DNA of 64,000 nucleotides, taken from positions 310,001 through 374,000 of the forward strand of contig NZ_CP026121.1 in the NCBI RefSeq assembly GCF_003330845.1, written 5' to 3'. This DNA is from Streptomyces sp. Go-475 (GTDB lineage Bacteria > Actinomycetota > Actinomycetes > Streptomycetales > Streptomycetaceae). Below, one piece after another: positions 45,206-64,000 of this stretch. The notes under the pieces were generated by a model. The model saw nothing but the letters and a program-made list of their open reading frames with translations, was not told the DNA's origin and did not search any database. Position 1 is the stretch's first letter, and each line of letters begins with the position of its first letter. A program made the position numbers and the translations under genes.

Positions 45206-46462
45206 TCAGAGCTGATGGGCGCCGGTGCCCCGCAGCCGGCCCCGGGTGTCGAGCAGCAGGGGGGCGTGGTCGGGCAGTCGTTCCAGGGGGACGGTGTCGT
45301 GGTCCTGCAGCAGGATCGTGAGGGCCGCGTCCGCGGCGGCGGCCAGTGCGTCGGCGGCGCGGTCCACGGGTTCGCCGTCCGGCGCCCAGGCGTCGACGAG
45401 CGGGTCGTGGTAGGCGACTCGGGCGCCGTGCTGCCGCAGGAGCCGGGCGATCGCGGCGGCCGGGGTGACCCGCAGGTCCGCGCAGTTGCGTTTGTAGGTC
45501 ACGCCGATCAGCAGCACCCGGGCATCCCGCAGGGCCCTGCCGTGCTGCCGCAGCAGGTGCTCGGCGCGCCGCACGACGTGTGCCGGCATCCCGGCGTTGA
45601 CCTCCTGCGAGAGTTCGACCAGGCGCAGCGGGGTGCCGGCGGCGCGCGCCCAGTGCGAGAGGTAGACGGGGTCGACCGGAATGCAGTGTCCGCCGACCCC
45701 CGGTCCGGGCCGGAACTCCTGGAAGCCGAAGGGTTTCGTGCGGGCGCAGTCGAGGGCGTCCCACACGTCGACTCCCCACGCCCGGGCGGCGATGGCGAGT
45801 TCGTTGACCAGGGCGATGTTCACGCTCCGGTAGGTGTTCTCGAGGAGTTTCGCCAGTTCGGCCTCCCGTGCGGAGCCCGCCTCCACGACCCGGTCGCACA
45901 GCCGCCGGAAGAAGTCGGCCGCGGCCGTCGTGCACCGGGGGGTGTATCCGCCCACGACGCGCGGGGTGTTGCGCACGCCGAAGGTGCCGTTGCCCGGGTC
46001 GATGCGCTCCGGTGAGAAGGCGAGGGCGAAGTCCGTGCCGGCGCTGAGCCCGGAGGCCCGCTCCACGATCGTCCGGACGACGTCGTCCGTGGTGCCGGGG
46101 AAGGACGTGGACTCCAGGATCACGAGGGTGCCGGGCTTGAGTCGGTCCCCGACACCTGAGGCGGCGCGTCGCACGTGGGAGAGGTCGGGGCCGCCCGTGG
46201 CGTCCAGGGGGGTCGGGACGCAGATCACGGCCACCGAGGCCTCCCCGAGGGGGCTCCCGTCGGCGCAGGCCCGGAAACCGGCGTCCAGCATGGCGGCCAG
46301 GTCGGCGTCGGTGACATCGGGGACGTGCGAGCGGCCCGCGTTCAGGGCCGCGGTGACGGACGGGTTCTCGTCGATCCCCGTGACCCGCAGGCCGGCGCGG
46401 CACGCCTCCCGGGCCAGCGGGAGACCGGTGTAGCCGAGTCCGATGACGGCAACGCTGTTCAT
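45206..46462 (-). CDS. Nucleotide-sugar dehydrogenase, UDP-N-acetyl-hexosamine (WecC/TviB) type
   Basis: A 418-residue enzyme from ATG 46462. NAD motif VAVIGLGYTGLPLAREACRA is at residues 4-23; VPTPLD and ESTSFPGTT follow; the helix KLLENTYRSVNIALVNELA is near residue 210; the catalytic cysteine is in GVGGHCIPVDPVYL near residue 260; and LIGVTYKRNCADLRVTP closes the sugar domain. It would oxidise the C6 alcohol of a UDP- or GDP-sugar to the uronic acid in two NAD-dependent steps. It is the last gene of the long leftward cluster, 71 bp after the second acyl-AMP ligase. Confidence 0.82.
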   Translation of the reverse strand: MNSVAVIGLGYTGLPLAREACRAGLRVTGIDENPSVTAALNAGRSHVPDVTDADLAAMLDAGFRACADGSPLGEASVAVICVPTPLDATGGPDLSHVRRAASGVGDRLKPGTLVILESTSFPGTTDDVVRTIVERASGLSAGTDFALAFSPERIDPGNGTFGVRNTPRVVGGYTPRCTTAAADFFRRLCDRVVEAGSAREAELAKLLENTYRSVNIALVNELAIAARAWGVDVWDALDCARTKPFGFQEFRPGPGVGGHCIPVDPVYLSHWARAAGTPLRLVELSQEVNAGMPAHVVRRAEHLLRQHGRALRDARVLLIGVTYKRNCADLRVTPAAAIARLLRQHGARVAYHDPLVDAWAPDGEPVDRAADALAAAADAALTILLQDHDTVPLERLPDHAPLLLDTRGRLRGTGAHQL

Positions 46463-46533
46463 GTCGCTCCCTGGAGGCAGGGTGTCGGTGCGGAGGGACA
46501 CGTCATGGGGCGGGCCCTTCGGGTGGTGGACGG

Positions 46534-48156
46534 TCAGCGCGGGCCGGAGGTCTCACGGGCGGCCAGGAGCGCCAGGGTCCTGCGGCAGATCTTTCCGCTG
46601 GGGCCGAGCGGCATCTCCCTGACGTGCAGGAGGAGTTCGGGGAGCTTGCGGCGTTCGAGGCCGCGCTGGGACTCCAGGAACCGCGTGAGTTCCCGCAGGT
46701 CCGGTGGGCGGGCGCCCGGCGTCTCGCGGACGCATGCGCACAGGCGCTCCCCCAGTTCCGGGTCGGGCACGCCGACGCAGGCCACCTCGGCCACGGCCGT
46801 GTGGGCGCCGATCTCGCGTTCCACCTCGGCCGGGCTGATGTTGTAGCCGCCGCGTACGACGATCTGCTTGATGCGGCCCAGGACGTGGAGCCGGCCGTGT
46901 GCGTCGAGGAGCCCGCGGTCGCCGGTGCGGACCCAGCCGGTGGAGGTGCGGTACCGGGCGTCGAGGCCGGGGTCGGCCACGTAGCACAGCGGTGTCATCG
47001 GGCCTCTGGCGCAGATCTCCCCGGGCTGTCCGGCCGGAGCGGCGGCGCCGGTGTCGTCGATGATGCGGATCCGCGCCACGGCCGGGTCGGGCAGGCCGGT
47101 GCCCGTCTCGGGGCGGAGCCCGGTGGCGGCGGTGTGGCAGTTGACGCCGTCGGATGACCCGTACACGGTGATGACGGGGCGGCCGAACCGTCGGCGGCAG
47201 GCGTCGGCGGTGGCGTCCGGGAGGGCCGCGCCGCTGGAGACGACGGCCCGCAGGCCGGAGAAGTCCTCCCGGTGGGCGGGCGGTTGCTCGGCGATGCGGT
47301 GGAGCATCGTGGGCACGCCGAAGACGTGCGTGGGCCGGTGTTCGACGATCATGCGGAGCGCCGCGGCCGGGTCGAAGGACTCCTGCAGCAGGAGTGTGCC
47401 GCCGAGGGCGGCGAGCGTGACGGAGGTGCCGCAGGAGCCGAAGGAGGACGCCAGCGGGACGAGGACGAGGTTGCGCATCGGGCCGCGCCCGTCGTGCAGG
47501 GCGCGTACGTAGGCGGCCCGGCCGCCGGCCATGGCGTTGTGGGAGTAGGCGGCCATCTTGGGTTCGGCCTCGGAGCCGGAGGAGACGAGGATCCGGGCGG
47601 GTGCCTCGGGGTCGACGGGGCGGGGGACGAAGGGCTGCCGGGCGGGTGCCGCGAGTGACTGCGCGGTTCCCCGGCCTTCCCCGAAGGTGAACACCGTTTC
47701 GAGGTGCGGGAGACGGGCTTGCGGCACCGCGTCGGAGGGCTCGTCGACGATGAGCGCGCGGGCGCGGGCGCGGCCGAGCAGGCTCACCGGGCCCCGGCTG
47801 CCGTGCCCCGGTGGATAGGGCAGTGCGACCGCGCCGACGGCGGCGACCGCGAGTTCCGCGGCCACCGCGTCGCGCCCGTTCGGCATCCGTACGGCGATGA
47901 TGTCCCGTTCGCCCAGGCCGTGTTCGGTGAGCCGGGCGGCGATGTGCCGTACCCGGGTGTCGAGCGTGGCGTAGTCCAGCGCGCCCGCCGGGTCGATGAC
48001 CGCCGTCCGGCCGGGGTGACGCCGTACGTGTGCGGAGAAGAGCGTGTAGAGGTCGCGGTCGGGGCAGTGGCCCTGGGTGACCCAGGCGCGCCGTAGCCGG
48101 GCCGGCACCAGGTCGCGGATCTCGATGCCGGCGTTCGATGTCCATCGGGCCCTCAT
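46534..48156 (-). CDS. Acyl-AMP/CoA ligase (ANL superfamily) with altered P-loop
   Basis: A 540-residue ligase from ATG 48156, overlapping the CoA transferase stop as ATGA. The usual TSGTTGxPK loop is replaced by SSGSEAEPKMAAYSH near residue 185, as in cyclohexanecarboxylate- or AliA-type ligases. The adenylate region is VYGSSDGVNCH near residue 340, the hinge RTGDRGLLDAHGRLHVLGR is near residue 420, and the catalytic lysine is in GPSGKICRRTL. It would activate a carboxylic acid, possibly cyclic. It follows a CoA transferase gene in the cluster, so one of the two may load and the other exchange CoA. Confidence 0.82.
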   Translation of the reverse strand: MRARWTSNAGIEIRDLVPARLRRAWVTQGHCPDRDLYTLFSAHVRRHPGRTAVIDPAGALDYATLDTRVRHIAARLTEHGLGERDIIAVRMPNGRDAVAAELAVAAVGAVALPYPPGHGSRGPVSLLGRARARALIVDEPSDAVPQARLPHLETVFTFGEGRGTAQSLAAPARQPFVPRPVDPEAPARILVSSGSEAEPKMAAYSHNAMAGGRAAYVRALHDGRGPMRNLVLVPLASSFGSCGTSVTLAALGGTLLLQESFDPAAALRMIVEHRPTHVFGVPTMLHRIAEQPPAHREDFSGLRAVVSSGAALPDATADACRRRFGRPVITVYGSSDGVNCHTAATGLRPETGTGLPDPAVARIRIIDDTGAAAPAGQPGEICARGPMTPLCYVADPGLDARYRTSTGWVRTGDRGLLDAHGRLHVLGRIKQIVVRGGYNISPAEVEREIGAHTAVAEVACVGVPDPELGERLCACVRETPGARPPDLRELTRFLESQRGLERRKLPELLLHVREMPLGPSGKICRRTLALLAARETSGPR

Positions 48157-49892
48157 GAGAACTCCCAGGGTGCGAGGGGGGCGGCGTACTCCCCGACGGC
48201 CAGCGCCGGTGCGAACGCCGGGTCGCGGGCCAGGTCGGCGAGGCTGGTGCACACCGGTGTGGCGGGCACGCCCGCTGCCGCCAGCCTGGGCAGCCAGACC
48301 GCGGTGGGCAGCGTCCGGGCCCGGGAGGCGATCGCCTCCGCGTCCGCCCCGGAGCCGAGGCCGAGCGCCCGGGCGAGGCGGTGCGGCCGCTCGTGGGCCC
48401 GCGGCCCTGGCCAGAGGTAACCGTCACTGGTCGGCAGCGGGCGGGCCGTCGCTCCGCGCCGCCGCCCGCGGGGAACGAGGGCGGCGGCGGAGTAGAGGGA
48501 GGAGTCCACCCGGCAGCCCCGCCCGGTGCGGAGCCGGGCCACCAGCGCCGCCAGCACGCCCTGCGCGCAGACCAGCCCGCCGAGGACGTCGGTGAGCGTC
48601 ATCAAGGAGGGGGCGGGTGGCTCGTCAGCGGGCCGGACGGCGGCGGCGAGGCCGCTGTGCGCCTGGACCAGGTAGTCGGTCCCCACCGGTGGTGCCGGCC
48701 CCAGGGCGTCGCCCCAGCCGGACGCCCACGCGTACACCAGCCCGGGGCGGGCGGCACGCAGGTCCTCGGCGTCCAGCCCGAGCCGGGCCGCCTTGCCCGG
48801 GGCCCAGTTGTGCAGGAAGACGTCGGCCTCGGACACGAGTGCGCGGACCGCCCGCCTGCCCGCCGGTGTGGTGAAGTCGGCCTCTTGGACGGTCTTTCCG
48901 GCGTTGAGGGCGCTGAAGCGGGCCGAGCAGGTGCCCGCGAGGGGAGGGATGCCGCGCATCGGGTCACCGCCCGGCGGTTCGATCCGTACGACGTCGGCGC
49001 CCAGGAGTCGCAGGACGTGACCGGCCATGGGCCCCTGGACGCGGCGCGCCGACTCGACGACCCGGAGGCCCGCGAGCGGTCCCCCGGCCGTGCGGTGCGC
49101 GTCTGCGGCGCCGGTCCGGCCGCTGGTGGGGGCGCCCGGTGCGGGGAACGGCGTGAGCGTCCACGGTGGGGTCGCCGTCGGCGGGAGGGGATCGTCCCGT
49201 ACGGGCAGGACGGCGGCTCCCGACCGGTCCGCCGCCGCGCGGACGGCCGCGAAGGAGGCGCGGCGCGCGGTGGCGGCCAGGCCGGGGGGCAGCGGGCAGG
49301 TGGCGGTGGCGAACCGCTGCTGGAACGACCGCCAGCCGCGGCCGGTGTCGCCCCGGTCCGCGCCGAGCGTCTGCCAGAAGCCCAGCCACCGCTCGGCGTC
49401 GAGGGCTTCGAGTTCGAAGCGCACGGCGTCGGCGGAGACGAACGGGCACCCCCCGGGCAGGAGGACCTCCTCCGGACGCCCGTCCTGCGGGTCGTCGCCG
49501 TCGGCGGTCGCGGCCGCGAGGTACTGGGTGAGGGCCAGCAGCGCGGCCTGGGTCACCGAGGTCCGCACCTGACTGAGGCCGGCGCCCGCGGCCCGCGCGA
49601 GGAGGACCGCGCAGGCTCCCTGGGCGGCGAGGACGCCCGCGACCGTGGAGGCGTAGTCGACGGCGAGCGGGGTGGGGTGCCCGGCCGCCCGGCCGTGGAC
49701 GTGCATGATGCCGCAGGCCGCCTGGACGGCGTGCTCGTCGGCCAGGGGGAGGGGCAGCGGGCCCTGCCAGTCGATGTGCCGGCCGACGGTGGCGGTGGCG
49801 GGGTCGTCCACCAGGTCGAGCAGGTGTGCGGCGACCCGGGCGGCCACCGGCGTGGTGGCCGGGGCCTCGGCGTGCGGCGCGCGGAGCGTCAT
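48153..49892 (-). CDS. Double-length family III CoA transferase (CaiB/BaiF)
   Basis: A 579-residue protein from ATG 49892, coupled by ATGA overlaps to the genes on both sides. The C-terminal part (about 290-579) is a family III CoA transferase: GPLAGLRVVESARRVQGPMA, LGADVVRIEPPGGDPMRG, NAGKTVQEADF and GTDYLVQAHSGL, which holds the aspartate expected to carry CoA. The N-terminal 280 residues look like a diverged first copy of the fold (LAVDYASTVAGVLAAQGACA), with no obvious active site. Ordinary members are about 400 residues and dimerise as interlocked rings. This arrangement may be a pseudo-dimer. It would move CoA onto a pathway acid. Confidence 0.75.
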   Translation of the reverse strand: MTLRAPHAEAPATTPVAARVAAHLLDLVDDPATATVGRHIDWQGPLPLPLADEHAVQAACGIMHVHGRAAGHPTPLAVDYASTVAGVLAAQGACAVLLARAAGAGLSQVRTSVTQAALLALTQYLAAATADGDDPQDGRPEEVLLPGGCPFVSADAVRFELEALDAERWLGFWQTLGADRGDTGRGWRSFQQRFATATCPLPPGLAATARRASFAAVRAAADRSGAAVLPVRDDPLPPTATPPWTLTPFPAPGAPTSGRTGAADAHRTAGGPLAGLRVVESARRVQGPMAGHVLRLLGADVVRIEPPGGDPMRGIPPLAGTCSARFSALNAGKTVQEADFTTPAGRRAVRALVSEADVFLHNWAPGKAARLGLDAEDLRAARPGLVYAWASGWGDALGPAPPVGTDYLVQAHSGLAAAVRPADEPPAPSLMTLTDVLGGLVCAQGVLAALVARLRTGRGCRVDSSLYSAAALVPRGRRRGATARPLPTSDGYLWPGPRAHERPHRLARALGLGSGADAEAIASRARTLPTAVWLPRLAAAGVPATPVCTSLADLARDPAFAPALAVGEYAAPLAPWEFS

Positions 49893-50716
49893 CGGGTGCC
49901 GTCCCGCTCGCCGGGCCGGGGCCGCCGGCCGTGGACCGAGTAGATGACACTGGACGCGGCGCAGAACGACGGGTCCCGCATCAGCGCCCGGACGTCCGCG
50001 AGTTGCGTCTCGGTCATGCCGGCGGCGAGGAGTCCGTCGCGCAGGTGGTAGGTGTGGTTGAGCTGCATCCGCAGGCCCGGTGACCCCGGGATGCGCAGTT
50101 CGATGCGGGGCCGGGGGTCGATGTCGACGAGTCCCGCGGCCCGCATGGCGGCGGGCGCCTTCCGGGCCCAGTGGGGGTCTCCCCCGCCGGCCCGCATGAC
50201 GGCGCACTTGGCGTCGAGGAAGGCCGTGTAGAGCCGCGCGGACTCCTCGTCGGGGGTGAGCAGGGGCGGTTCGTAGGAGGCGTCGAACTCCTCGATGTGC
50301 AGCCGTCCTCCGGGTTTGAGGGCGTGGACGAGCTTGTCGAGGACGGCGAGCCGTTCGGGCAGGTGCTGGAGGACGAGGCGGGCGACGACCAGGTCGAACT
50401 CCGCCTCGGGGAGCGGATCGGTCACCACGTCGTGCGCGACGACGGTCAGGCACGGGCCGTCCTGGACGAGGTGTGGCCTGAGGTCGGTCGCCGTGACCTC
50501 ACCGGTGGGTGCGACGCGTTCGGCGAGCCATCTCGCCACCGTTCCGCTCCCGCAGCCGATGTCCAGGCACCGCCAGCCGGTCGTGACGCCGGTCTCGGCG
50601 AGCCGGGCGAAGGTCATCGTGTCGTAGGCGTCGGTGAGACAGCGGTGCAGTGCGTCGTTGTGCTCGCTGTCGTTGTCGAAGACGTATCCCGGGGCCCGGC
50701 CCAGGCTCTCGCGCAT
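49889..50716 (-). CDS. SAM-dependent methyltransferase, class I
   Basis: A 275-residue protein from ATG 50716 (GGGGGAGA upstream). Motif I is CLDIGCGSGTVARWLAERV near residues 48-66, post I is VTATDLRPHLV, motif II/III region is FDLVVARLVLQHLPER near residue 118, then LVHALKPGGRLHIEEFD. The pattern resembles UbiE/menaquinone and polyketide C- or O-methyltransferases. Its ATGA link to the CoA transferase and place beside UbiA-type genes suggest it methylates the aromatic or acyl part of the product. The acceptor is unknown. Confidence 0.83.
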   Translation of the reverse strand: MRESLGRAPGYVFDNDSEHNDALHRCLTDAYDTMTFARLAETGVTTGWRCLDIGCGSGTVARWLAERVAPTGEVTATDLRPHLVQDGPCLTVVAHDVVTDPLPEAEFDLVVARLVLQHLPERLAVLDKLVHALKPGGRLHIEEFDASYEPPLLTPDEESARLYTAFLDAKCAVMRAGGGDPHWARKAPAAMRAAGLVDIDPRPRIELRIPGSPGLRMQLNHTYHLRDGLLAAGMTETQLADVRALMRDPSFCAASSVIYSVHGRRPRPGERDGTR

Positions 50717-50760
50717 GTGTCTCCCCCTGTGCCGTGCCGTCCCAGGCACTTGTCGTGTCG

Positions 50761-52353
50761 TCAGGTCCACCGGCCGGAGCCGGAGGTGTCGCTGCGGCCG
50801 GTGAGTCGGTGCAGCAGCTCCCCGCGCCGCACTTTGCCGGTGCCGGTGCGCGGCACCTGGTCCCAGGTGAGGGCGACCGGCTCCCGCAGGGGCGGCAGAT
50901 CCCGGACCGCTTCCTTCCAGCGGGCCCGGTCCAGGGCACCGTCGGCGGTGACCACGACGGGCAGCGGGTCCCGGCCGGGCTCGGCGAGGACGACGCACTC
51001 CAGGGCCTGGGGCAGCCGGGTCTCCAGGAGGTCCTCGGTGCGCAGGCAGCTGAGCCGCGGGGTGCGGTCCACCTCGCGGTCGAGCAGGTCGATGCTGCCG
51101 TCGCGGTTGCGGACGCCGATGTCGCCGGTGTTCCACCAGTTGCCGTGCCGCTTGGCCGACCAGCGGTCCTCCTCGCCGACGTAGCCCAGGGCGCGGGCGG
51201 CGGTCCTGGCCAGGACGAGGCCCGCCCGGCCGCGCGGCAGGGGCCGGAGGGTGTCGGGGTCGACCACCCGCAGCCGTGTCTTCACGGGCACCGGGCGTCC
51301 GAGGTTCCGGGTGCCGGTCCCGCTGGACGTCCGGTGGACGGACCGCCGGGTGTGGAAGCGGAAGGTCAGCGGTCCCGTCTCGGTCTGTCCCCATCCCTCC
51401 AGCCACACGGGGCTGTGGTGCCGGCTCGCCCTGAGGTAGGCGCGGACGGTGGGGGGATGCATGGCGTCGTACGTGCTGATGACCAGGCGGACGCGCCGGA
51501 ACGGGTTGTCCAGCCCTTCGGTCAGGGGCTGGAAGCGGACGAACGAGGCGGGCAGCGCCTCCAGGACGGTCGGCGGGTGGGCGCGCAGCGCGGGGTCGGC
51601 GAGGTTGGGGTCCTGGGTGGTGATGATGGAGATCGCGGCGGGGCCCATGGACAGGGCGCTGGCGGTCCAGCAGAACGTGCGGCCGTGGGCGAACGCGCTC
51701 GCGTTGACGAGGGTGTCGCTGCGCCGCAGTCCGATCCGCGGCAGCCGCGCGCTCTCGAACCGGGCGAGCTTGCCGATGATCGTGCGGGTCGAGTGCACGA
51801 CCAGTTTGGGCACTCCGGTGGTGCCCGAGGTGTGGTGGATGACCAGGGGTTCGTCGTCGTGTCTGCGGTGGGGGCCGGGGGCGGTGCGTCCGCGGACGTC
51901 GTCCAGGCCGAGCGTCCCGGGCAGGGCGCCGTCCAGCACGAGCGTGGCGCGGGCGGCGGCGGCCAGGTCGGCGCCCTCCCGCCGGCCGCGTTCCAGCACC
52001 TGGGCGGTCGTGACCAGCAGGGCGGGGGCGAGCCGGGCCAGGAGCGTCCGCAGCACCTCCCCGGACAGGTGGGCGGACAGCTGCGCGGGGACGGCGCCGA
52101 CGCGCACGGCGGCGCAGGCCAGCAGGTCGTAGTCCCAGTGGTTGTCCTTGACGATGGCCACCCGGTCCCCGGGGCCGGCCCCTGCCGCGGTCAGCCAGCC
52201 GGCCGCGTCCCGTACGAGCGCGGCGAGTTGCGGGAGCGTGTAGTGGGTCCGGGCGTCCGCGCCGATGGTGAACGGCCGGTCCAAGTGGACCTGCGTGCCC
52301 ATCCGTTGTGCGGCGCATTCGTCGAACAGGACGCCCATGTCGTGCGGTTTCAC
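50761..52353 (-). CDS. Acyl-AMP/CoA ligase (ANL superfamily)
   Basis: A 530-residue ligase from GTG 52353, overlapping the oxidase stop as GTGA. The open frame continues far upstream without similarity. The P-loop is IHHTSGTTGVPKLVVHST near residue 175, the adenylate motif is EGWGQTETGPL near residue 305, the hinge is WWNTGDIGVRNRDGSIDLLDR near residue 410, and the lysine is in PRTGTGKVRRGELL. It is the second activating enzyme of the cluster, clearly different from the one at 46534, so two acids are probably activated. The methyltransferase gene follows after 44 bp. Confidence 0.83.
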   Translation of the reverse strand: MKPHDMGVLFDECAAQRMGTQVHLDRPFTIGADARTHYTLPQLAALVRDAAGWLTAAGAGPGDRVAIVKDNHWDYDLLACAAVRVGAVPAQLSAHLSGEVLRTLLARLAPALLVTTAQVLERGRREGADLAAAARATLVLDGALPGTLGLDDVRGRTAPGPHRRHDDEPLVIHHTSGTTGVPKLVVHSTRTIIGKLARFESARLPRIGLRRSDTLVNASAFAHGRTFCWTASALSMGPAAISIITTQDPNLADPALRAHPPTVLEALPASFVRFQPLTEGLDNPFRRVRLVISTYDAMHPPTVRAYLRASRHHSPVWLEGWGQTETGPLTFRFHTRRSVHRTSSGTGTRNLGRPVPVKTRLRVVDPDTLRPLPRGRAGLVLARTAARALGYVGEEDRWSAKRHGNWWNTGDIGVRNRDGSIDLLDREVDRTPRLSCLRTEDLLETRLPQALECVVLAEPGRDPLPVVVTADGALDRARWKEAVRDLPPLREPVALTWDQVPRTGTGKVRRGELLHRLTGRSDTSGSGRWT

Positions 52354-53729: not shown

Positions 53730-54703
53730 CCGGCGGCCCCGGCACCGACGATCAGGTTCGCGGTGATCAGCAGCACCGTGCTGACCCGGTGCGCCGGGAA
53801 CCCGAGCTTGCGGGCGCGCATGATGTCCCCCTGGCGGAAGCCGGTGAGGTACTGCCGTAGGCGCAGCGCGGTGACGGGCAGCATCAGCAGCACGAACCAC
53901 CAGGGGGCGATCCCGGCGGCGGAGGCGACCGCGCCGATCAGGAACTCGGCCGCGGACAGGGCGCCGATGAAGACGGCGTTGCCCTTCGGCGAGACCAGGC
54001 ACGCCACGGTGAGCCGCCCGACGGCCCGGTCTCCCGGGATGTCGTTGGTGTTGGAGTACACGCCGAACAGCAGCGGACCGAAGCCGAACAGCACCCCCTG
54101 CACCATGACGAACCCGGAGAAGTGGCCGGCTGCCAGCCCGTACGCCGCCAGCACGAGCGCCGCGCCGAGCCCCGCGAGGAAGACCTCCTGGAAGCCGTGG
54201 TAGCTGATCTTCAGCCCGTAGGAGTACTGCACGGACACCACGAACAGCACCACGATGAGCACCACGGTCCAGGTGGGCCGGTACGGGGCGGTCGCCACGG
54301 CCGCGGCCCACAGGACGGCGCCGGCCGCGGCGGTGGCCCAGCCGAAACCGAGTGCTTCGCGCAGGGTCAGGGTCCCCGCGACGAGCGGCTTGCGGAGTTT
54401 GTTGCGCAGCGGGTCGTCCGGGCCGTAGTTGGCGGCGTCGCTGCCGTCGCGGTAGCCGGTCACGTCGTCGAGGGCGACCATCGCCACGATCACGAAGACC
54501 GCGCCGAGGAGGAACAGGGCGAGCGTCACGATCGTCGCGGTCGGCAGCTCGGAGAGGGGCAGCAGCACCGCGGACAGCCCCACGGCGACGCTCGGGTAGT
54601 AGTCGTAGACGTCGAGTTTGCCCAGTCGGGCGTAGCTGCGCAGCTTGCTCTCGGGGCGGGTCGTTCCGGACGTGGAGGGTCCGGCCTCGGTGCGGGTCGT
54701 CAT
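53726..54703 (-). CDS. UbiA family prenyltransferase
   Basis: A 325-residue membrane protein with about eight transmembrane helices. The first Asp-rich motif is VALDDVTGYRDGSDAAN near residue 77, the second is YSNTNDIPGDRAVGR near residue 215, both expected to bind Mg-diphosphate of the prenyl donor. KPLVAGTLTLREAL between them is typical of the family. It would attach (or cyclise) a prenyl chain at the membrane. No isoprenyl-diphosphate synthase gene is visible in the window, so the donor comes from general metabolism or from genes further right. ATGA overlaps join it to its neighbours on both sides. Confidence 0.83.
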   Translation of the reverse strand: MTTRTEAGPSTSGTTRPESKLRSYARLGKLDVYDYYPSVAVGLSAVLLPLSELPTATIVTLALFLLGAVFVIVAMVALDDVTGYRDGSDAANYGPDDPLRNKLRKPLVAGTLTLREALGFGWATAAAGAVLWAAAVATAPYRPTWTVVLIVVLFVVSVQYSYGLKISYHGFQEVFLAGLGAALVLAAYGLAAGHFSGFVMVQGVLFGFGPLLFGVYSNTNDIPGDRAVGRLTVACLVSPKGNAVFIGALSAAEFLIGAVASAAGIAPWWFVLLMLPVTALRLRQYLTGFRQGDIMRARKLGFPAHRVSTVLLITANLIVGAGAAG

Positions 54704-57125: not shown

Positions 57126-57157
57126 GGTTCCTCTCGTGGCGGTGGTGGCGGAGGCGG

Positions 57158-57171
57158 GCCGAGCGCTCGGC
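57158..57171. promoter_or_regulatory. Perfect 14-bp palindrome before the aminotransferase genes
   Basis: GCCGAGCGCTCGGC lies 33 bp upstream of the aminotransferase start, in the gap after the first EF-hand gene. It could be an operator for an internal promoter or a small hairpin in the leader. No matching regulator is visible. Confidence 0.35.
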
Positions 57172-57261
57172 GGGAACGGGGCGGACAGCACCTGGGACGG
57201 CGCTCCCCGGCGGGCCGGGGGGCGCCGGACGCGGGAGCGGTGCCCCGTCGTCGACAGGCGG

Positions 57262-57792
57262 TCAGAGGAGGGCGAAGTCCAGGTCGCCGGAGTGGTAGCG
57301 GTGTACCGCCGCGATGAGCTCCTCGACCGACAGCTGCCCGTCACCGTCGCTGTCGATCAGCTCGAACGCCGTCTGCGCGGTGGCCTCGTCGCTGCCGATG
57401 GCGTGCATCCAGCGCTGGAACTCCTGGGGGCTGACCTGGCCGTCACCGTCGGTGTCGCACAGGTTCGCGATCGCGCCGATCGTCGGGCGCAGCACCTCGT
57501 CGAAGCCGTCCTGCCCGCGCTCCAGCACCTGCTTCGCCGCCACGGCCGCGAACTCGCCGAAGCTCAGCGTCCCGTCGGGCCCGATTCCGGCCTGCCCCGC
57601 CAGGTGGTCCCACATACCGAGGTACGCGTCGGTGAGGGCCCGGCCCTTCGGGGAACTCTCGCTTTCCCCGAACGAGGCCAGAATGCGCTGTGCCTCGTCG
57701 GCCCAGTCACTGCGCTCGATGGTGCCGTCGCCGTTCTTGTCCCACATGTCGAATCGGCGACGCAGCCGCTGTTCCTGCACGGAAGTGGTCAC
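57262..57792 (-). CDS. EF-hand calcium-binding protein, calerythrin-like
   Basis: A 176-residue soluble protein from GTG 57792, with a strong AAGGAAAGGA ribosome site. Four EF-hand positions are seen: DKNGDGTIERSDW (about 18-30), a degenerate loop GIGPDGTLSFGEF (about 70-82), DTDGDGQVSPQEF (about 114-126) and DSDGDGQLSVEEL (about 147-159). Length and the degenerate second hand match calerythrin of Saccharopolyspora. It would bind three Ca2+ and act as a sensor or buffer in the cytoplasm. It stands at the head of the biosynthetic operon with a paralogue at 58452, an unusual placement. Confidence 0.87.
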   Translation of the reverse strand: MTTSVQEQRLRRRFDMWDKNGDGTIERSDWADEAQRILASFGESESSPKGRALTDAYLGMWDHLAGQAGIGPDGTLSFGEFAAVAAKQVLERGQDGFDEVLRPTIGAIANLCDTDGDGQVSPQEFQRWMHAIGSDEATAQTAFELIDSDGDGQLSVEELIAAVHRYHSGDLDFALL

Positions 57793-57898: not shown

Positions 57899-58459
57899 TC
57901 AGTCCCGCCGACTCGACAGCAGGACACACCCCGATACAACAATCGGGGCCACCTGGGAGATGAGCTGCCCGACCACGTCCGCGGTGCCGAAGCGCCCGAG
58001 ATGCGCGACGTGGAAAATGAGGTGCGGAATCGTGAAAGCGAGGCATCCGAAGGCCGCCGCCCGCACCAGGCGCCGCTCCGGGACGACAGCGGCCGAAATG
58101 AGAACAGCCGTCAGGCCGAGTGACAGAGCGCCGAGATCGCGCACCAGGTGTTCGTTGTACGGCGGGAATCTGGTCACCCACCCGAGGCCCGGGAAAGGGA
58201 ACTCGTCGTAGAAGGACCGCGGCGCGAAGAGGGCCCACAGCCCGGGCAGTCCCTGCCCCAGCGCGAGCAGCACGAGTGCGGCACGCACGAGGAGGGGTCT
58301 GGCCGGTGGCGCCGGCGGGCCCGCCGCACCGGCCGGTCGTGACCCGTCGGGCCGGGCCCCGCCCCGCGTTTCCACGGGGGTCGGCAGAGTCCGCGGGCGG
58401 GGGGCCGCCCGGAGCGTCTCGCGCCCGGAGCGACCCCGGCCGGCCTGCGGCTCAGACAC
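57899..58459 (-). CDS. Small membrane protein of unknown function
   Basis: A 186-residue protein starting at GTG 58459, overlapping the upstream EF-hand gene by 8 bp. After about 50 Pro/Gly/Arg-rich residues there are four hydrophobic segments (about 55-75, 95-115, 122-142 and 155-175), with FPPYNEHLVRDLGALSLGL and IPHLIFHVAHLGRF between them. The His-rich segment resembles small DUF4267/DoxX-like membrane proteins, but I do not recognise it firmly. It lies between two EF-hand genes and is probably translated together with them, so it may be their membrane partner. Confidence 0.7.
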   Translation of the reverse strand: MSEPQAGRGRSGRETLRAAPRPRTLPTPVETRGGARPDGSRPAGAAGPPAPPARPLLVRAALVLLALGQGLPGLWALFAPRSFYDEFPFPGLGWVTRFPPYNEHLVRDLGALSLGLTAVLISAAVVPERRLVRAAAFGCLAFTIPHLIFHVAHLGRFGTADVVGQLISQVAPIVVSGCVLLSSRRD

Positions 58460-58991
58460 CCAGCAGCGGGGCGTCGAGCTCCCCCGCGTGGTACCTGCCC
58501 ACCGCGGCGACGAGTTCCTCGACGGACAGTTGCCCGTTTCCGTCGGTGTCCACCTGGCCGAACACCTCGTCGGCGTCGACCCGGTCGTTGCCGATGGCGG
58601 CGAGCCACTTCCGGAACTCCGCCGGGTCGACCTGCCCGTCGCCGTCGATGTCGCACAGGTCGACCATCGCTCGGATGCTGGGCCGGAGCATGGTGCTGAA
58701 GCCGGCCGCGCCCTGGCTCAGCATCTGGGCGTCGGCGATCGCGACGAACTCGTCGGCGGACAGGGAGTCACCGGGGTCGCGGCCGGCCTGCTCCATCATG
58801 TAGTCCCACATGTGCGGGTACGCGTGCAGCAGTGCCTGGGCCTTGGGTGAGCCGTCCGGCTCGCCGAAGGCCTCGACGATGCGCCGGGCCTCCGCCTCCA
58901 GGTCCCCGCGTCGGACCCGTCCGTCGCCGTCGGTGTCGTACAGCTCGAAGCGCTGCCGGAGACGCTCGACCTGGGCAGTCTTGTTGGACAT
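58452..58991 (-). CDS. EF-hand calcium-binding protein, calerythrin-like (paralogue)
   Basis: A 179-residue protein from ATG 58991 (GAGGAG upstream). EF-hands: DTDGDGRVRRGDL (about 19-31), a degenerate GRDPGDSLSADEF (about 71-83), DIDGDGQVDPAEF (about 115-127) and DTDGNGQLSVEEL (about 148-160). It is clearly related to the 57262 protein over its full length (roughly half identical by eye), so the pair arose by duplication. It is the first gene of the leftward transcript, just after the intergenic control region. Confidence 0.85.
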   Translation of the reverse strand: MSNKTAQVERLRQRFELYDTDGDGRVRRGDLEAEARRIVEAFGEPDGSPKAQALLHAYPHMWDYMMEQAGRDPGDSLSADEFVAIADAQMLSQGAAGFSTMLRPSIRAMVDLCDIDGDGQVDPAEFRKWLAAIGNDRVDADEVFGQVDTDGNGQLSVEELVAAVGRYHAGELDAPLLGV

Positions 58992-59545
58992 CTCACTCCT
59001 CGTCGTCGGAAAAACTGCGGCAGGGAGATGGAAAAACCCGAGCAGAGGCCGGGCGATCAACCGCCCCACGCAAGACGAATTTGCAATTCCTCGCTGCAAG
59101 CTACATGGATAGTGGCAGCCGTCGACGCCTGTCAATGGAGGGCCGGATCACCCGAACCGCAGAAACATTTTTCCTGGAACGGTGAGCTTCCCCCCGCGGC
59201 CGATTGTTTTCGCCCGCGGGTTCGGCTGCCCCGGCGGAATCGCCCTGCTGGACGGAACACGCCGGGAAGATCGCACCCCACCGCCGCTCCCGACGTTCAT
59301 TCCAGCCATCTTCCCGTCAGCCGCAGAAGTGGCGAGCAAAGGCGAAGAACGCCACCATCGGATACGATGCGTCGAGGCCGCGACAACGCAACCCGCGTCC
59401 CTCCCGTCGCATATTTCACGAGAACCGCCGTGCGTGTTTCCCGGGGCGGCAGAATGGGTATGCCGATCGTTTTCAATTCGCCCGAGCCCGATTTCAACGC
59501 TCGTCGAGTATTACTTTCCGAAAAGACGCACAAGGGGGTCTGGAC
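58992..59545. promoter_or_regulatory. Divergent promoter region of the biosynthetic cluster
   Basis: This 554-bp gap has no convincing gene. It is more AT-rich than the surroundings, with a TTGCA-N9-TGCAA inverted repeat near 59078, a CCCGCGG/CCGCGGG stem (59193-59220), and AT-rich stretches near 59160 and 59420-59520. It separates the leftward EF-hand/ligase/UbiA operon from the rightward oxidoreductase operon, so both main promoters are expected here. An open frame upstream of 59546 in frame with the oxidoreductase is not supported. Confidence 0.6.
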
Positions 59546-60598
59546 GTGCTGTGCACGTTGATCGTCGGCCTGGGCCGCGCCGGCCTGGGACTGCATGTGC
59601 CCGTGCTGCTGCGCGCGCGTTCTCAGGCCCTCGCGGCTTTCGCCGACCATCCGATCGTGGGCGTGGACCCCGGGAACGGCTCCCCACCCGGGCAGCGGGA
59701 CCTGCTGATCGCCGATTCCCTGCGCCAGGCCTGCGATCTGGTGGACCCCGCGCGCACCGTCGTCCACCTGTGCACTCCGCCCGCCGTGCGCGTCGAGGTG
59801 CTCCGCGAGGTCGCCGCCCTCGGGTTCTCGCGGATCCTGGCGGAGAAGCCGCTGGCCGGTGACCGGGAGGCGCTCCGCAGCCTGCTGCGCCTCGCGCGGG
59901 AACACGACCTGCGCCTGTCGGTGGTGGCCCCCTGGCTGCACAGCGCGCTGACCCGGCGTCTCGTCCGGCTGGTGGGCGACCGGCGGCTCGGCGAGGTGCG
60001 TTCCGTGTCCGTCATCCAGCACAAACCCCGGTTCCGGCGCTCCCTCGGCAGCGGCAGCCACACCTCCGCCTTCGACGTGGAGGCCCCGCACGCGGTGGGC
60101 GTCCTGCTGCGCCTCCTGGGCGACGCGCGGGTGCACCGCGCCACCGGCACCGACCTGCGGGTGGGTCCGGTGACGGTGCCGCGCATGGGCGGCGCGCACC
60201 TCGAACTGCTGCACGCGGACGGGATCCGCAGCGAGGTCCTGTCCGACCTGTCCGCACCGGTACGCCAGCGGCGCATCGCCCTGGACATGGCGGGCGGCAG
60301 CGTCGTCGGGCACTACGCGGTCGGCCAGGACGACGACTTCGCCCAACTGGAGATCACCCGTGACGGCCACACCACACGCGAGGTCTTTCCCGACGACTCC
60401 CTCAGGTCCTGCCTGACGCAGGCCTACCGCGACTTCGCCGCCTGCGGGGAGGGGACCGGCTCCGACGACCTCGGCCTGCACGTGCGCACGGTCGAACTGC
60501 TCGACGAGGCGAAGCGGCTGGCCGCCGACGAGCAAGCGGCCGCACCACCCACCGGCGGCGGGACCCGCCGCAAGGAGGCGATCACCCATGGGCGTTGA
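59546..60598 (+). CDS. Gfo/Idh/MocA family oxidoreductase
   Basis: A 350-residue NAD(P)-dependent enzyme. The start is GTG 59546 because AAGGGGG lies just upstream and the nucleotide-binding motif LIVGLGRAGLGLHVPVLL begins at once. EKPLAGD near residue 100 carries the family's catalytic-region lysine, and HTSAFDVEAPHAVGVLLRLL near residue 180 replaces the usual GGxxxDxGxHxxD helix. Relatives oxidise inositol, sugar or aminosugar carbons. Working with the isomerase encoded next and the DegT aminotransferases, it could make the keto group that is aminated. It overlaps the next gene by 11 bp. Confidence 0.82.
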   Translation: MLCTLIVGLGRAGLGLHVPVLLRARSQALAAFADHPIVGVDPGNGSPPGQRDLLIADSLRQACDLVDPARTVVHLCTPPAVRVEVLREVAALGFSRILAEKPLAGDREALRSLLRLAREHDLRLSVVAPWLHSALTRRLVRLVGDRRLGEVRSVSVIQHKPRFRRSLGSGSHTSAFDVEAPHAVGVLLRLLGDARVHRATGTDLRVGPVTVPRMGGAHLELLHADGIRSEVLSDLSAPVRQRRIALDMAGGSVVGHYAVGQDDDFAQLEITRDGHTTREVFPDDSLRSCLTQAYRDFAACGEGTGSDDLGLHVRTVELLDEAKRLAADEQAAAPPTGGGTRRKEAITHGR

Positions 60599-61559
60599 CC
60601 ACCCCTCCGGAGCGAACTGCCGGCTGCCCCGGTCCGCCGCGACGACCGGGAACGACCGCACCGGCCAGGCCGCACCCGGCATCCGTTTCGCGGGCATCGG
60701 GGACGAGGCCGCGGCGGACCTCACGGGGCAACTGGACGCGTTACGCCGACTGGGTTGGAACGCGATCGAGTTGCGCACCGTCGACGGCGTCGCGATCGCC
60801 GACCTGGACGACCGGGCCTTCGCCGCCCTGGCCGACCGGATCACGGCGGCAGGCCTCGACGTCGTCTGCGTCGACTCCCGGATCGCCAACTGGAGCCGGC
60901 CGGTCACCGGCCGCTTCGAGGACGACGAGCGGGAGTTGCGGGTGCTGGCCCGGCGCTGTGCCGCCCTGGGCACCCGGTACGTCCGGGTGATGTCCTACCC
61001 CAACGCCGGTCTGGACGAAGAGGACTGGGGCAGGCGGGTGCTGGCCCGGATGACCCTGCTGGTCCGGCAGGCCGAGCAGCACGGGCTGGTGCTGCTGCAC
61101 GAGAACTGCAGCGGCTGGGCCGGCGCCCGGGCCGACCGGATGCTGGAACTGCTGGACCGGGCCGGCGGCCCCGCGCTGCGGCTGCTGTTCGACATCGGCA
61201 ACGGGGTGCCCTACGGCTACGACGCCCGCGCGCTGCTGGACGAGATCATCGGCCACGTCGCCCACGTGCACGTCAAGGACGCCCGCACGGGACCGGACGG
61301 CCACGTCGGATACACACTGCCGGGGGACGGGGAATCGGGTGTGCGCTCCTGCCTCAAGGCCCTCCTCGATCACGGCTACACGGGCGCGTGGTCGATCGAA
61401 CCGCACACCCACCTGCGGCCGCACGAGGACCACGACATCACCGGCTCCGACGGGGTGGCGGCGTTCGTCCGCTACGGCCGGCACCTGGAGCGGCTCGTCC
61501 GGCAGGACGTCCTGCCGGCCCGCACCCCCGTCGCCGGTGGCGGGAGGCGGCATGACTGA
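60588..61559 (+). CDS. Sugar phosphate isomerase/epimerase, TIM barrel (IolE-like)
   Basis: A 323-residue xylose-isomerase-type TIM barrel from ATG 60588 (AAGGAGG upstream). After a 30-residue leader the barrel has FAGIGDEAAADLTGQLDALR, WNAIELRTVDG, LVLLHENCSGWAG (Glu ligand, near residue 170), LLFDIGNGVPYG (Asp, near 200), HVAHVHVKDART (His, near 226) and GAWSIEPHTHL (Glu, near 265), the four metal ligands of the family. It would isomerise, epimerise or dehydrate a keto-sugar or inosose. Codon 52 (60741-60743) is TTA, tying the rightward operon to bldA control. Confidence 0.82.
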   Translation: MGVDHPSGANCRLPRSAATTGNDRTGQAAPGIRFAGIGDEAAADLTGQLDALRRLGWNAIELRTVDGVAIADLDDRAFAALADRITAAGLDVVCVDSRIANWSRPVTGRFEDDERELRVLARRCAALGTRYVRVMSYPNAGLDEEDWGRRVLARMTLLVRQAEQHGLVLLHENCSGWAGARADRMLELLDRAGGPALRLLFDIGNGVPYGYDARALLDEIIGHVAHVHVKDARTGPDGHVGYTLPGDGESGVRSCLKALLDHGYTGAWSIEPHTHLRPHEDHDITGSDGVAAFVRYGRHLERLVRQDVLPARTPVAGGGRRHD

Positions 61560-62943
61560 CGTCCCGGCCGCCCTGTCGCCTCCCGCACGGCTGACACCGG
61601 CCGATCACGAGCTGCTGCTCCGCCTGCTCGACACCCCCACGGCCGGACCGCTGGAGACGGGCGACGCGGGCCCGGCCGTGTCCCTGTGGGAGGCCGGGCG
61701 GACCTACACGGCGGCCGCGGCGCAGCTCGGTCTGCGGGTACTGCGCCACGCCCCGGCGGAACCGGGCGTGCTGTGCGGGGAGGACGTACCGCTGATCGTC
61801 CGGGAGGCGGCGCGGGACGAGACGTTCCTGGCCCGCCAGCCCAGCCTGGTGCTGCGCCTCGGCCCGCGGCTCCCGCGGCGGGACACGGTGATGTTCAACG
61901 TCCACCTGGACACCGTGGCCGGATGGTGGCCGGCCCACTTCGACGGACGGCGCTTCACCGGCCGGGGAGCGATCGACGCCAAGGGCCCCGCCGTCGCCCT
62001 GCTCGCCGGCATCCGGGCGGCCCGGGCCGCGGAACCGGCCCTGGGCAGCCGGGTCGGCGTGCTCGTGCAGGCCGTCGCCGGTGAAGAGGGCGGCGCCATG
62101 GGGACGTTCGGCACCAGGCCGCTGGTGGAGGCCGGGTTCACCGGCGGACTGAACCTGTTCTGCGAGCCCACCGGGCACCGCTTCCTGCCGCGCTCGACGG
62201 CGTCCATGACGGCCGTCGTCCGCGTCGAGGGCGAGGACGCCGTGGACGATCGCCCCGAGGCCGGGCACAACGCGACCGTGCTGCTGGGGCACATCAGCCA
62301 CCACCTGGCCCGCGCCCTGCCCCCGCGGATCCGTGACGGCAGGGTGTGCGTGGCGGGCCTGCACACCGGTGAGCGGCACAACAGGGTCTACGGCACCGGC
62401 CGGCTGCTGCTCAACGTCTCCTACGGTTCACGGGCGGCCGGCGAGGCCGCCGAAACCGCCCTGCGGGAAGCCCTGGACGAGGCCCTCGCCACCTTCTCCG
62501 CCGAGGCGGCCGGCACCCGCGACCTGGCCAGGACCGCCGCCGACGCGGCCCGGATCACCTCGCTGCACTGGGCCAAACGCGGCCTGCCCGCGCTGGACGG
62601 CCGAGGCCGCGCGCCGTGGGCCGAGGAACTGCTGGAACGGCATGCGGGTCTGGCGCGCTGGCCCGACGAGGAACCGGCCTTCACCTGCGACGCGATCTGG
62701 ATGGCGGAGGTCCCCGACGGCTACACGGCCGTCTTCGGCCCCGGCGACCTGGACACCAACCGGGCCCACGCCGCCGGTGAGTACGCCGACCTGGCCGACC
62801 TGGACCGCTACGCCGACGAGATCGCCCGCCTCCTCGTCGCCCGCGTCCGCCACCCGCCGCCCGGCGCCGGTGCCGCCGCAGAAACCCACGCCCATCGAGC
62901 TGCCGCGCCCGGCGCGGCCGAGGACAGGATCTCCGCCCGATGA
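61552..62943 (+). CDS. M20 family metallopeptidase/deacylase
   Basis: A 463-residue ArgE/DapE-type enzyme from ATG 61552 (GGGAGG upstream), overlapping the isomerase gene by 8 bp. Zinc-ligand motifs are NVHLDTVAG near residue 120 and RGAIDAKGP near residue 145, and the catalytic Glu pair is in GEEGGAMG near residue 180. CEPTGHRFLPRSTASM near residue 205 is the dimer-domain entry. Within a biosynthetic cluster such enzymes remove an acetyl or other acyl or aminoacyl group late in the pathway, or split an amide. The substrate is unknown. Confidence 0.82.
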   Translation: MTDVPAALSPPARLTPADHELLLRLLDTPTAGPLETGDAGPAVSLWEAGRTYTAAAAQLGLRVLRHAPAEPGVLCGEDVPLIVREAARDETFLARQPSLVLRLGPRLPRRDTVMFNVHLDTVAGWWPAHFDGRRFTGRGAIDAKGPAVALLAGIRAARAAEPALGSRVGVLVQAVAGEEGGAMGTFGTRPLVEAGFTGGLNLFCEPTGHRFLPRSTASMTAVVRVEGEDAVDDRPEAGHNATVLLGHISHHLARALPPRIRDGRVCVAGLHTGERHNRVYGTGRLLLNVSYGSRAAGEAAETALREALDEALATFSAEAAGTRDLARTAADAARITSLHWAKRGLPALDGRGRAPWAEELLERHAGLARWPDEEPAFTCDAIWMAEVPDGYTAVFGPGDLDTNRAHAAGEYADLADLDRYADEIARLLVARVRHPPPGAGAAAETHAHRAAAPGAAEDRISAR

Positions 62944-64000
62944 CCTCGACGGCCTCCACCACGTCCGCCACCCCGAAGACCACCAGGGCCGCGACGGACG
63001 AGTCGCCTCGCTCCGGCCCGCGTGTCGTGCCGCCCCGGGCCCCCGGCGCCCCCGGCGTGCGCGTGCCGTACCGGGACCTCCTCGCCTTCGTGACCGGGGT
63101 CCTCGTCGGCCGGGGGCTGCCCGAGAACCGCGCCGAAGCCGCCGCCGAGGCGCTGTGCCACGGCGACCTGACCGGCTTCACCAGTCACGGCGTCACCAAC
63201 CTCACCCGCCTCTACCTGCCACTGCTCGACTCGGGCCGGTGCGACCCCAGGGCGGAGCCTCGGATCGTCGCCGACCACGGTGCCTCCGTGCTCCTCGACG
63301 CCCGTCGGGCGCTCGGACTGTGGGCCGCCGGCGAGGCCATGGAGCTGGCGGTCGAGCGTGCCCGCCGGTACGGGGTCGGCATGGTCTCGGTGCGCGGCGC
63401 CACACACTTCGGCTGCGCGGGCCACCACGCCCTGCGCGCGGTCCGGCACCACATGGTGGGCCTGGTCACCGCCAACTGCGGACGGCAGCGGATCGTCCGC
63501 CCCGTCGGCGGACGGTCCCCCATGCTCGGCACCAACCCCCTCGCGCTGGCCGCCCCGGCCGGCGACCGGCCGCCGTTCGTCCTGGACATGGCCACCACGG
63601 TGGCCCCCACCGGCAGGGTCCGGGCCGCGGCACGCGCCGGGCAGCGCGTGCCCGAGGGCTGGCTGCACGACGGCCACGGCGCCCCGGTGACCGACCCGGC
63701 CGCCTTCGACCGCGGCGAGGCGCACCTGAGCTGGCTCGGCGGCACCCCCGACACCGGCGCCTACAAGGGCTTCGGGCTGGGCCTGCTGGTGGAGGTGCTG
63801 TCCGCGCTCGTCCCGGGAGCCGGACTCGGCCCCTCGGCCGCTGTCCCGCGGACGGCGGAGGCGAAGGCGGGTGGCCCGGACGACGACATCGGCTGCTTCC
63901 TGCTCGCCGTCGCCCCCGGGCGGCTCCGCTCCGAGACGGAGTTCCTCACCGACGCGGCCGGACTGTTCGGTGCCCTCCTCGACTGCCCGCCGGTCCGGGC
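62940..64000 (+). CDS. Malate/L-lactate dehydrogenase (LDH2/YlbC) family oxidoreductase, C-terminus outside window
   Basis: Starts at ATG 62940 with an ATGA overlap and stays open to the right edge (353 codons seen). A 40-residue Ser/Thr/Pro-rich leader precedes the LDH2 fold: GDLTGFTSHGVTNLTRLYLP near residue 80, VRGATHFGCAGHHALRAV near residue 155 (catalytic His), GTNPLALAAPAGDRP near residue 195 and YKGFGLGLLVEVLS near residue 277. The family uses NAD(P) without a Rossmann fold to reduce 2-oxo acids or cyclic imines. It probably reduces a keto acid or imine of the pathway. The leader is unusual for the family. Confidence 0.83.
   Translation, partial: MTSTASTTSATPKTTRAATDESPRSGPRVVPPRAPGAPGVRVPYRDLLAFVTGVLVGRGLPENRAEAAAEALCHGDLTGFTSHGVTNLTRLYLPLLDSGRCDPRAEPRIVADHGASVLLDARRALGLWAAGEAMELAVERARRYGVGMVSVRGATHFGCAGHHALRAVRHHMVGLVTANCGRQRIVRPVGGRSPMLGTNPLALAAPAGDRPPFVLDMATTVAPTGRVRAAARAGQRVPEGWLHDGHGAPVTDPAAFDRGEAHLSWLGGTPDTGAYKGFGLGLLVEVLSALVPGAGLGPSAAVPRTAEAKAGGPDDDIGCFLLAVAPGRLRSETEFLTDAAGLFGALLDCPPVR

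Follow-up and report, generated by a model that had tools for sequence, protein, structure and literature searches.

A conserved divergent gene cluster in Streptomyces sp. Go-475 that carries a putative amino-sugar cassette and a UbiA prenyltransferase module

Gene content and conservation of the cluster

The window analysed in this work is a stretch of 64,000 nucleotides (positions 310001-374000) of Streptomyces sp. Go-475, the genome of which is an 8.57-Mb single contig. Positions 45206-66102, counted from the first letter of the window, are a real, conserved and sharply bounded biosynthetic cluster whose final 2.1 kb lies beyond the window. Genes were called with a codon model trained on the sequence of the same genome, and the calls were extended rightward past the window end. 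The cluster consists of 18 genes, 12 on the minus strand (45206-58991) and six on the plus strand (59546-66102). A preliminary description of the window had reported about sixteen genes in two tightly overlapping operons that diverge from one 554-bp region. The divergent gap is exactly 554 bp, 16 of the 18 genes start within the window (the Ldh2 gene is cut by its end), and 11 of the 16 same-strand junctions overlap by 4-11 bp, with gaps of 44-178 bp at the remaining five. The cluster is supported as one unit of two divergent operons with sugar-amination, acid-activation and prenyl genes.

The enzymes named in that description were confirmed with Pfam and NCBIfam: two AMP-binding proteins, a family III CoA-transferase (two matched stretches), a methyltransferase, a UbiA protein, a flavin amine-oxidase-type protein, two DegT aminotransferases, a nucleotide-sugar dehydrogenase, a xylose-isomerase-like TIM barrel, an M20 protein and an Ldh2 protein. 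The label of the first Gfo/Idh oxidoreductase is the weakest of the list, as its PF01408 score falls short of the cut-off of 24 bits. The stated absence of polyketide synthase, nonribosomal peptide synthetase and classical terpene synthase also stands, and Pfam scans across the 18 genes gave no ketosynthase, condensation/carrier or terpene synthase domain. The list lacked two EF-hand proteins and a small protein without known family, and the second Gfo/Idh gene and the DUF6917-CMD gene lie past the window end, where they could not be seen. The features are shown in Table 1, for which several domain scans used longer open frames than the final gene calls.

The cluster is conserved in eight relatives. 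G404 and G512 retain all 18 genes and G496 retains 17, in the same order and with 73-91% identity. Four further loci (L044-L047) reach about 10 kb per side and retain the genes within that reach in order, with 58-93% identity; in L046 the match to DUF6917-CMD covered too little of the protein to count. The eighth relative, G478b, is more distant (39-82% identity), has a displaced methyltransferase gene, and yielded no AMPL2, CaiB or small-protein homologue. The genes that flank the cluster in the window were not found beside it in the eight relatives, except for a 58% match to a SpoIIE-type protein elsewhere in G478b. The gene order is kept in seven relatives without the flanks of the window, and therefore the cluster is not a chance grouping.

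A second, diverged version is located at 6.011-6.039 Mb of the same genome (L011, L012), 5.6 Mb from the window cluster. It has homologues of 13 of the 18 genes (UbiA, methyltransferase, Gfo/Idh-1, IolE, M20, Ldh2, Gfo/Idh-2, DUF6917, both DegT, NDPDH, AMPL1 and FADox) with 38-68% identity. It also carries a polyprenyl synthase (PF00348, 158.7 bits; 6.011 Mb) and dxs (TIGR00204, 602 bits, above cut-off). Its ispG, ispH, regulator, second FADox and MMPL-like transporter were labelled only by reading translations, and its BenE label is based on a scan of the L053 homologue.

Retained catalytic residues are observed across the homologues. The catalytic Cys of NDPDH is kept in 40 of 40 homologues, the His, Asp and Glu of M20 in 55 of 55, and one Asp of each UbiA Asp motif in 46 of 46, both motifs being present in the window UbiA. 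The pyridoxal phosphate (PLP) lysine is kept in 54 of 55 DegT1 and 52 of 55 DegT2 homologues and is present in both window copies. The Glu/Asp/Glu of the IolE-like metal site is kept in 51 of 51 homologues and its His in 42.

Table 1. Features of the cluster in window coordinates, with strand and supporting match.
Feature	Position	Strand	Evidence
NDPDH, nucleotide-sugar 6-dehydrogenase	45206..46462	-	TIGR03026, 372.9 bits, above cut-off
AMPL2, acyl-AMP ligase 2	46534..48156	-	PF00501, 201 bits, longer open frame
CaiB-like CoA-transferase family III	48153..49892	-	PF02515, 230 bits, 2 stretches
Class I S-adenosylmethionine methyltransferase	49889..50716	-	PF08241 and relatives, longer open frame
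AMPL1, acyl-AMP ligase 1	50761..52353	-	PF00501, 161 bits
FADox, flavin amine-oxidase/HpnE-like oxidoreductase	52350..53729	-	PF01593, 149.6 bits, longer open frame
UbiA-type membrane prenyltransferase	53726..54703	-	PF01040, 63.4 bits
DegT2, DegT aminotransferase 2	54700..55854	-	PF01041, 312 bits, longer frame
DegT1, DegT aminotransferase 1 (start codon uncertain)	55851..57191	-	PF01041, 367 bits, longer frame
EF-hand protein 1	57262..57792	-	PF00036, 76 bits
Small protein, 124 aa	57899..58273	-	no Pfam/NCBIfam match
EF-hand protein 2	58452..58991	-	PF00036, 65 bits, longer frame
Putative divergent promoter region, 554 bp	58992..59545	.	11-locus alignment
Gfo/Idh-1, Gfo/Idh-like oxidoreductase, divergent	59546..60598	+	PF01408, 23.2 bits, just below cut-off
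IolE-like TIM barrel (AP_endonuc_2)	60588..61559	+	PF01261, 99 bits
M20-family deacylase	61552..62943	+	PF01546, 52 bits
Ldh2-family reductase	62940..64175 (window ends 64000)	+	PF02615, 330 bits
Gfo/Idh-2, outside window	64172-65131	+	PF01408, 83 bits
DUF6917-CMD, outside window	65128-66102	+	PF21891, 191 bits; PF02627, 71 bits

The 554-bp region exhibits short conserved blocks across the 11 aligned loci, including TTGAC on the minus strand; a consensus promoter scanner called no promoter in it and an Rfam search gave no match. The 124-aa small protein is kept at 71-93% identity in seven of the eight relatives, and AMPL1 is 54% identical to its paralogue. EF-hand pairs are rare in the genome, where PF13499 matches four proteins, two of them in the window cluster. 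A 70-residue EF-hand protein (L152:4266-4478) is located about 4.4 kb before the second cluster.

Distribution and modularity of the cassette

A reproducible cassette was identified that consists of two DegT, two Gfo/Idh, the IolE-like barrel, M20, Ldh2, DUF6917 and usually the nucleotide-sugar dehydrogenase. Among 392 genomes of the same genus, the IolE-like gene was found in 49, DUF6917 in 52 and both in 47. DUF6917 without IolE was found in G465, G609, G676, G703 and G705, and IolE without DUF6917 in G654 and G710. A close UbiA relative (at least 280 bits) is present in 43 genomes, that is, in 40 of the 49 IolE genomes versus 3 of the 343 without IolE; at E 1e-20, UbiA is present in 57 genomes, 41 of which have IolE. 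Fisher p values for the three pairings are 2e-52, 3e-42 and 3e-34, in a set whose related genomes are not independent. The preliminary description had named a lack of co-occurrence in other genomes as grounds against the cluster, and these counts provide no such grounds. DUF6917 was found in one of 396 genomes drawn from the phylum (the genome of the window itself) and in none of 14 controls.

A scan for the IolE-pair pattern yielded 29 loci, 26 of which have the cassette whole or in part (L069, L070 and L072 lack it). Another 30 loci were fetched by DUF6917 from 29 of the other 51 positive genomes, chosen non-randomly for long contigs. Six core genes (DegT1, DegT2, Gfo/Idh-1, IolE, M20 and Gfo/Idh-2) are complete in 24 of the former and 27 of the latter, the exceptions among the latter being G407 (DegT pair elsewhere), G478a (four missing) and G703 (all missing). 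The cassette occurs in Streptomyces, Kitasatospora, Kibdelosporangium, Actinocrispum, Actinomadura, Actinokineospora, Nocardiopsis, Streptomonospora, Actinoplanes and a Pseudonocardiaceae metagenome-assembled genome, and it occurs together with UbiA in several actinobacterial genera. The DUF6917 gene of G703 (L107/L108) lies beside a PLP enzyme, a thiamine pyrophosphate enzyme, DUF1015, an FAA hydrolase and two ATP-grasp ligase-type proteins, a gene set that resembles another small-peptide-like cluster.

With the two loci of the window genome the set comprises 61 loci, in which IolE (58) and DUF6917 (57) are counted partly by construction and far-end genes are undercounted where loci are short. 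The other counts are DegT1 56, DegT2 56, Gfo/Idh-1 56, M20 55, Gfo/Idh-2 55, Ldh2 54, UbiA 46, methyltransferase 42, FADox 39, AMPL1 36, EF-hand 31, CaiB 18 and AMPL2 15. The divergent layout is not universal, as L065, L066 and L067 have DegT and UbiA genes after the plus operon in the same direction.

Three types were grouped by gene content. Type A, to which the window cluster belongs, consists of the cassette and a UbiA module with AMP ligases and EF-hand proteins. Its 33 loci have UbiA (31), AMPL1 (30), FADox (33), EF-hand (31), CaiB (18) and AMPL2 (15), and isoprenoid-supply genes were found in none of them. Type B consists of the cassette and a UbiA module with isoprenoid-supply genes; its 18 loci have UbiA (15), dxs-like (13), prenyl synthase-like (11), ispH-like (11), ispG-like (9), BenE-like benzoate-type transporter (8), FADox (6) and EF-hand (0) genes. 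Type C (six loci) has the cassette without UbiA, ATP-grasp ligases nearby, and DUF6917 fused to Gfo/Idh-2 in six of six loci. Concatenation of five core proteins gave a tree with data for 56 of 58 loci, which we chose to root on type C; in it, the 18 type B loci form one clade (0.988) nested within type A.

The type C loci differ in their surroundings. G462 has trpD, trpC, trpB, trpA, trpE, trpG and trpF, a major facilitator superfamily transporter, a PheT-like B3/4 domain and two ATP-grasp ligase-type proteins, one of them a weaker match. In G580 the order and lengths of the genes agree with those of G462. In G689 such agreement, again judged by length, is confined to the genes upstream of the DegT pair; of the downstream genes that were scanned, the first two are dynamin-like. 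The surroundings of G637 include a P450, a glucarate-dehydratase-like enzyme (259 bits, below the cut-off of 829), two ATP-grasp ligase-type proteins and a FemAB-like protein. Those of G632 include an amino-acid permease and another member of the superfamily to which the glucarate-dehydratase-like enzyme belongs; G687 is the sixth locus. The trp genes and free-standing PheT-like B3/4 editing domain of G462 (L111/L112) could reflect self-resistance or a supply of tryptophan for a peptide.

The amino-sugar half can be separated from the UbiA half. About 850 kb lie between a DegT-methyltransferase-UbiA-AMPL1-NDPDH run and the Gfo-IolE-M20-Ldh2-Gfo run of G407, and about 200 kb between a UbiA-AMPL1-NDPDH run and the cassette of G570; in G441 UbiA is about 190 kb from the cassette, judged by position only. 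UbiA is kept in these genomes after separation, which favours a joint function. The earlier reading of an aminated sugar joined to activated acids and a prenyl group is upheld in its joint gene set and refined by the separability of the halves. In G770 (L139), a UbiA relative and isoprenoid-supply-like genes adjoin a nucleotidyltransferase, a GDP-mannose-dehydratase-type protein and an NDP-hexose 2,3-dehydratase, so that a prenyl module stands beside a different sugar pathway.

Proposed pathway and alternative explanations

The modular logic of an amino sugar and a prenyl acid is well supported at the gene level. We infer the reactions, their order and the final coupling from family knowledge, and the chances are evenly divided for the whole model, in which two exchangeable modules would make an amino building block from a nucleotide sugar and join it to a prenylated acid. 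Module 1 (NDPDH, Gfo/Idh-1, Gfo/Idh-2, DegT1, DegT2, IolE-like, M20, Ldh2 and DUF6917) would convert a nucleotide sugar, most likely UDP-N-acetylglucosamine (UDP-GlcNAc), into a small amino building block. NDPDH would oxidise C6 to give a uronic acid, a Gfo/Idh enzyme would produce a keto-sugar and DegT1 would transaminate it. M20 would then remove the N-acetyl group, the IolE-like barrel would reshape the intermediate, and DegT2 and Ldh2 would carry out a second amination and a reduction.

NDPDH passes its subfamily cut-off (TIGR03026) and is nearest to UDP-N-acetylmannosamine (UDP-ManNAc) dehydrogenases. A Gfo/Idh protein scores 63.7 bits with the UDP-GlcNAc 3-dehydrogenase equivalog, an archaeal model, below the cut-off of 450, and Gfo/Idh-2 matches sugar dehydrogenases broadly. 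The nearest PDB chain to DegT1 is 2oga, which we take to be DesV, followed by 7b0d, 3frk and WbpE; the nearest to DegT2 is 7b0d. M20 is nearest to N-acyl amino acid deacylase models, all far below cut-off, which suggests that it frees an N-acyl amino group next to a carboxylate. Three of the 56 loci with DegT1 (G632, G637 and G687) lack Ldh2, and in the same three the PLP lysine of DegT2 is lost; apart from these, such a loss was seen only in an extra DegT copy in G594. It therefore seems that DegT2 and Ldh2 share a step with which the three loci dispense; these loci are related and perhaps represent few independent events. The ATP-grasp ligases near the UbiA-free cassette (G462, G637) suggest that its product is an amide-coupled amine or amino acid, and the glucarate-dehydratase-like enzyme of G637 suggests sugar-acid intermediates.

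Module 2 (UbiA, methyltransferase, AMPL1, FADox, CaiB and AMPL2) would make and activate a prenylated, probably aromatic, acid. AMPL1 would join this acid to the amine of module 1 and could perform the amide coupling in type A. A prenylated aromatic acid as the partner is suggested by UbiA, by BenE, and by the FAD_binding_3 protein and Pyr4-like cyclase that adjoin a module-2 relative in G552, which lacks both the DUF6917 and the IolE gene.

Nitrosuccinate lyase (NF052556) is above cut-off in 16 of the 32 genomes examined. Its distance from UbiA or the cassette is no more than about 15 kb in the type B genomes G425, G541, G407, G594, G729 and G739 and in G552, and in all seven an oxygenase-like neighbour is present that we take to be CreE-like from its Pfam NAD_binding_9 match and position. 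In G570 and G441 the oxygenase-like gene alone is adjacent. Neither gene was found near either cluster of the window genome, where the only lyase match, below cut-off (535.7 versus 650), is at 7.59 Mb and oxygenase matches are at 2.47 and 7.90 Mb; N-N chemistry thus does not extend to the type A cluster of the window. In G552 (L142) a single run comprises UbiA, an AMPL1-like gene, a Pyr4-like cyclase, a nitrosuccinate lyase and MMPL-like genes, and it resembles a nitrous-acid-dependent meroterpenoid cluster. We tentatively put forward a joint reading, with the chances somewhat against it. The cassette would be a portable route to an undescribed amino acid or diamine derived from a sugar, which actinomycetes would attach to unrelated scaffolds: prenylated acids in types A and B, and peptides made by ATP-grasp ligases in type C. 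In those type B loci where the lyase and oxygenase are close to the cassette or UbiA, the product may in addition acquire an N-N group, with AMPL1 acting as a diazotase-like enzyme and not as a plain acid activator.

Several observations weigh against the two-module model. No cluster enzyme passes a named substrate-specific model: NDPDH scores 230.5 bits (cut-off 750) and 219.8 bits (cut-off 459) with UDP-ManNAc dehydrogenase models and 185 bits (cut-off 592) with a third UDP-HexNAc dehydrogenase equivalog. NDPDH was found in 40 of 61 loci, many of which end at 10 kb, and it is absent from G496, a locus 40 kb wide. The metal-site His of the IolE-like barrel is replaced by Gln in nine of 51 homologues, and AMPL1 was found in only six of 18 type B loci. 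Neither a prenyl-diphosphate synthase nor a recognisable source of an aromatic acid is present in the window cluster; one such synthase lies in the second cluster, and 11 of the 18 type B loci have a homologue. G674, G765 and G770 have close UbiA relatives but no cassette, and eight of the 49 IolE genomes have no UbiA match, so it is not proved that both modules are coupled into a single molecule.

Both modules are also found singly, as would be expected of two adjacent independent pathways, one to an amino-sugar product and one to a meroterpenoid, inherited together. This explanation is improbable in view of the concentration of close UbiA in IolE genomes, which are not independent where related, the retention of both modules where they lie apart (G407, G570, G441) and their joint presence in several genera. 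UbiA enzymes usually act on aromatic rings. That family knowledge fits a single ring shared by both modules, in which a sugar would become a nitrogen-containing aromatic ring (pyrrole- or pyridine-carboxylate) that is prenylated by UbiA and activated by the AMP ligases. The BenE-type homologues of type B fit such a ring, as does the membership in the Ldh2 family of a cyclic-imine reductase (delta1-piperideine-2-carboxylate reductase, 1wtj, E 8e-25; last of 13 PDB matches). However, we doubt it, as no ring-forming step is recognisable and an aromatic acid alone explains less well the amino-acid-ligase-type genes of the UbiA-free variants.

The preliminary description had also allowed for a cyclitol. 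On such a route the Gfo/Idh enzymes would oxidise inositol and the IolE-like barrel would dehydrate it, as happens in inositol breakdown; the DegT pair would then aminate the intermediate, FADox would aromatise it and UbiA would add the prenyl group, as in BE-40644-like isoprenoid-cyclitols. The top named models are IolE for the barrel (36 bits, cut-off 290) and IolG for Gfo/Idh-2 (73 bits, cut-off 355), and the isoprenoid-cyclitol BE-40644 involves a UbiA enzyme (PMC5133447). However, this route gives no role to the nucleotide-sugar dehydrogenase or M20, and the glucarate-dehydratase-like enzyme of G637 points to sugar acids. A sugar-phosphate cyclase (DHQ-synthase family, PF01761) is not among the 18 genes, and the genome matches are about 1 Mb or more away (1.36 and 5.43 Mb, and 7.66 Mb below cut-off). 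The cyclitol part of the description was not supported, and we consider the route unlikely.

Comparison with known systems and significance

Among the closest known systems is the UDP-amino-uronic acid pathway of the WbpA-WbpB-WbpE type. The cluster is similar to it in having a 6-dehydrogenase, a Gfo/Idh dehydrogenase and a DegT transaminase (WbpE is also a PDB match). However, the cluster adds a second DegT, M20, the IolE-like barrel, Ldh2 and DUF6917, has no glycosyltransferase among its 18 genes, and reaches no substrate-specific cut-off.

The BE-40644 cluster, as described in PMC5133447, similarly combines a UbiA prenyltransferase with sugar- or cyclitol-modifying genes, whereas its ring comes from the sugar-phosphate cyclase that the window cluster lacks. 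The ebo operon shares a UbiA protein and a TIM-barrel isomerase-like protein, whereas its EboD cyclase is absent here (PMC5133447 and PMC6282210); the words 'DegT' and 'aminotransferase' do not occur in the main text of PMC5133447. UbiA, a methyltransferase and an aminotransferase are found both here and in UbiA/Pyr4 meroterpenoid clusters, zig among them. However, the window cluster has no Pyr4-like cyclase, P450 or polyprenyl synthase, and the zig gene list given in PMC13307353 is without sugar genes. A Pyr4-like cyclase adjoins module-2 relatives in G552 and G407. Unlike nitrous-acid (aspartate-nitrosuccinate) clusters, the window cluster has no nitrosuccinate lyase.

A close match to a characterised cluster would have gone against the preliminary description. 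The open-access literature searched yielded no such match and no description of the cluster, which does not prove it undescribed, and no paper in it contained DUF6917.

The sugar half recurs beside different partners and thus looks like a reusable part for natural products. Its marker DUF6917 occurs in 52 of 392 genomes and in at least three architectures, with no core synthase alongside. Should its product prove to be a polar amino building block that is used repeatedly, the solution of a single member would give a function to DUF6917 and to dozens of clusters at one stroke, and would make one family of meroterpenoids and one of peptides accessible to genome mining.

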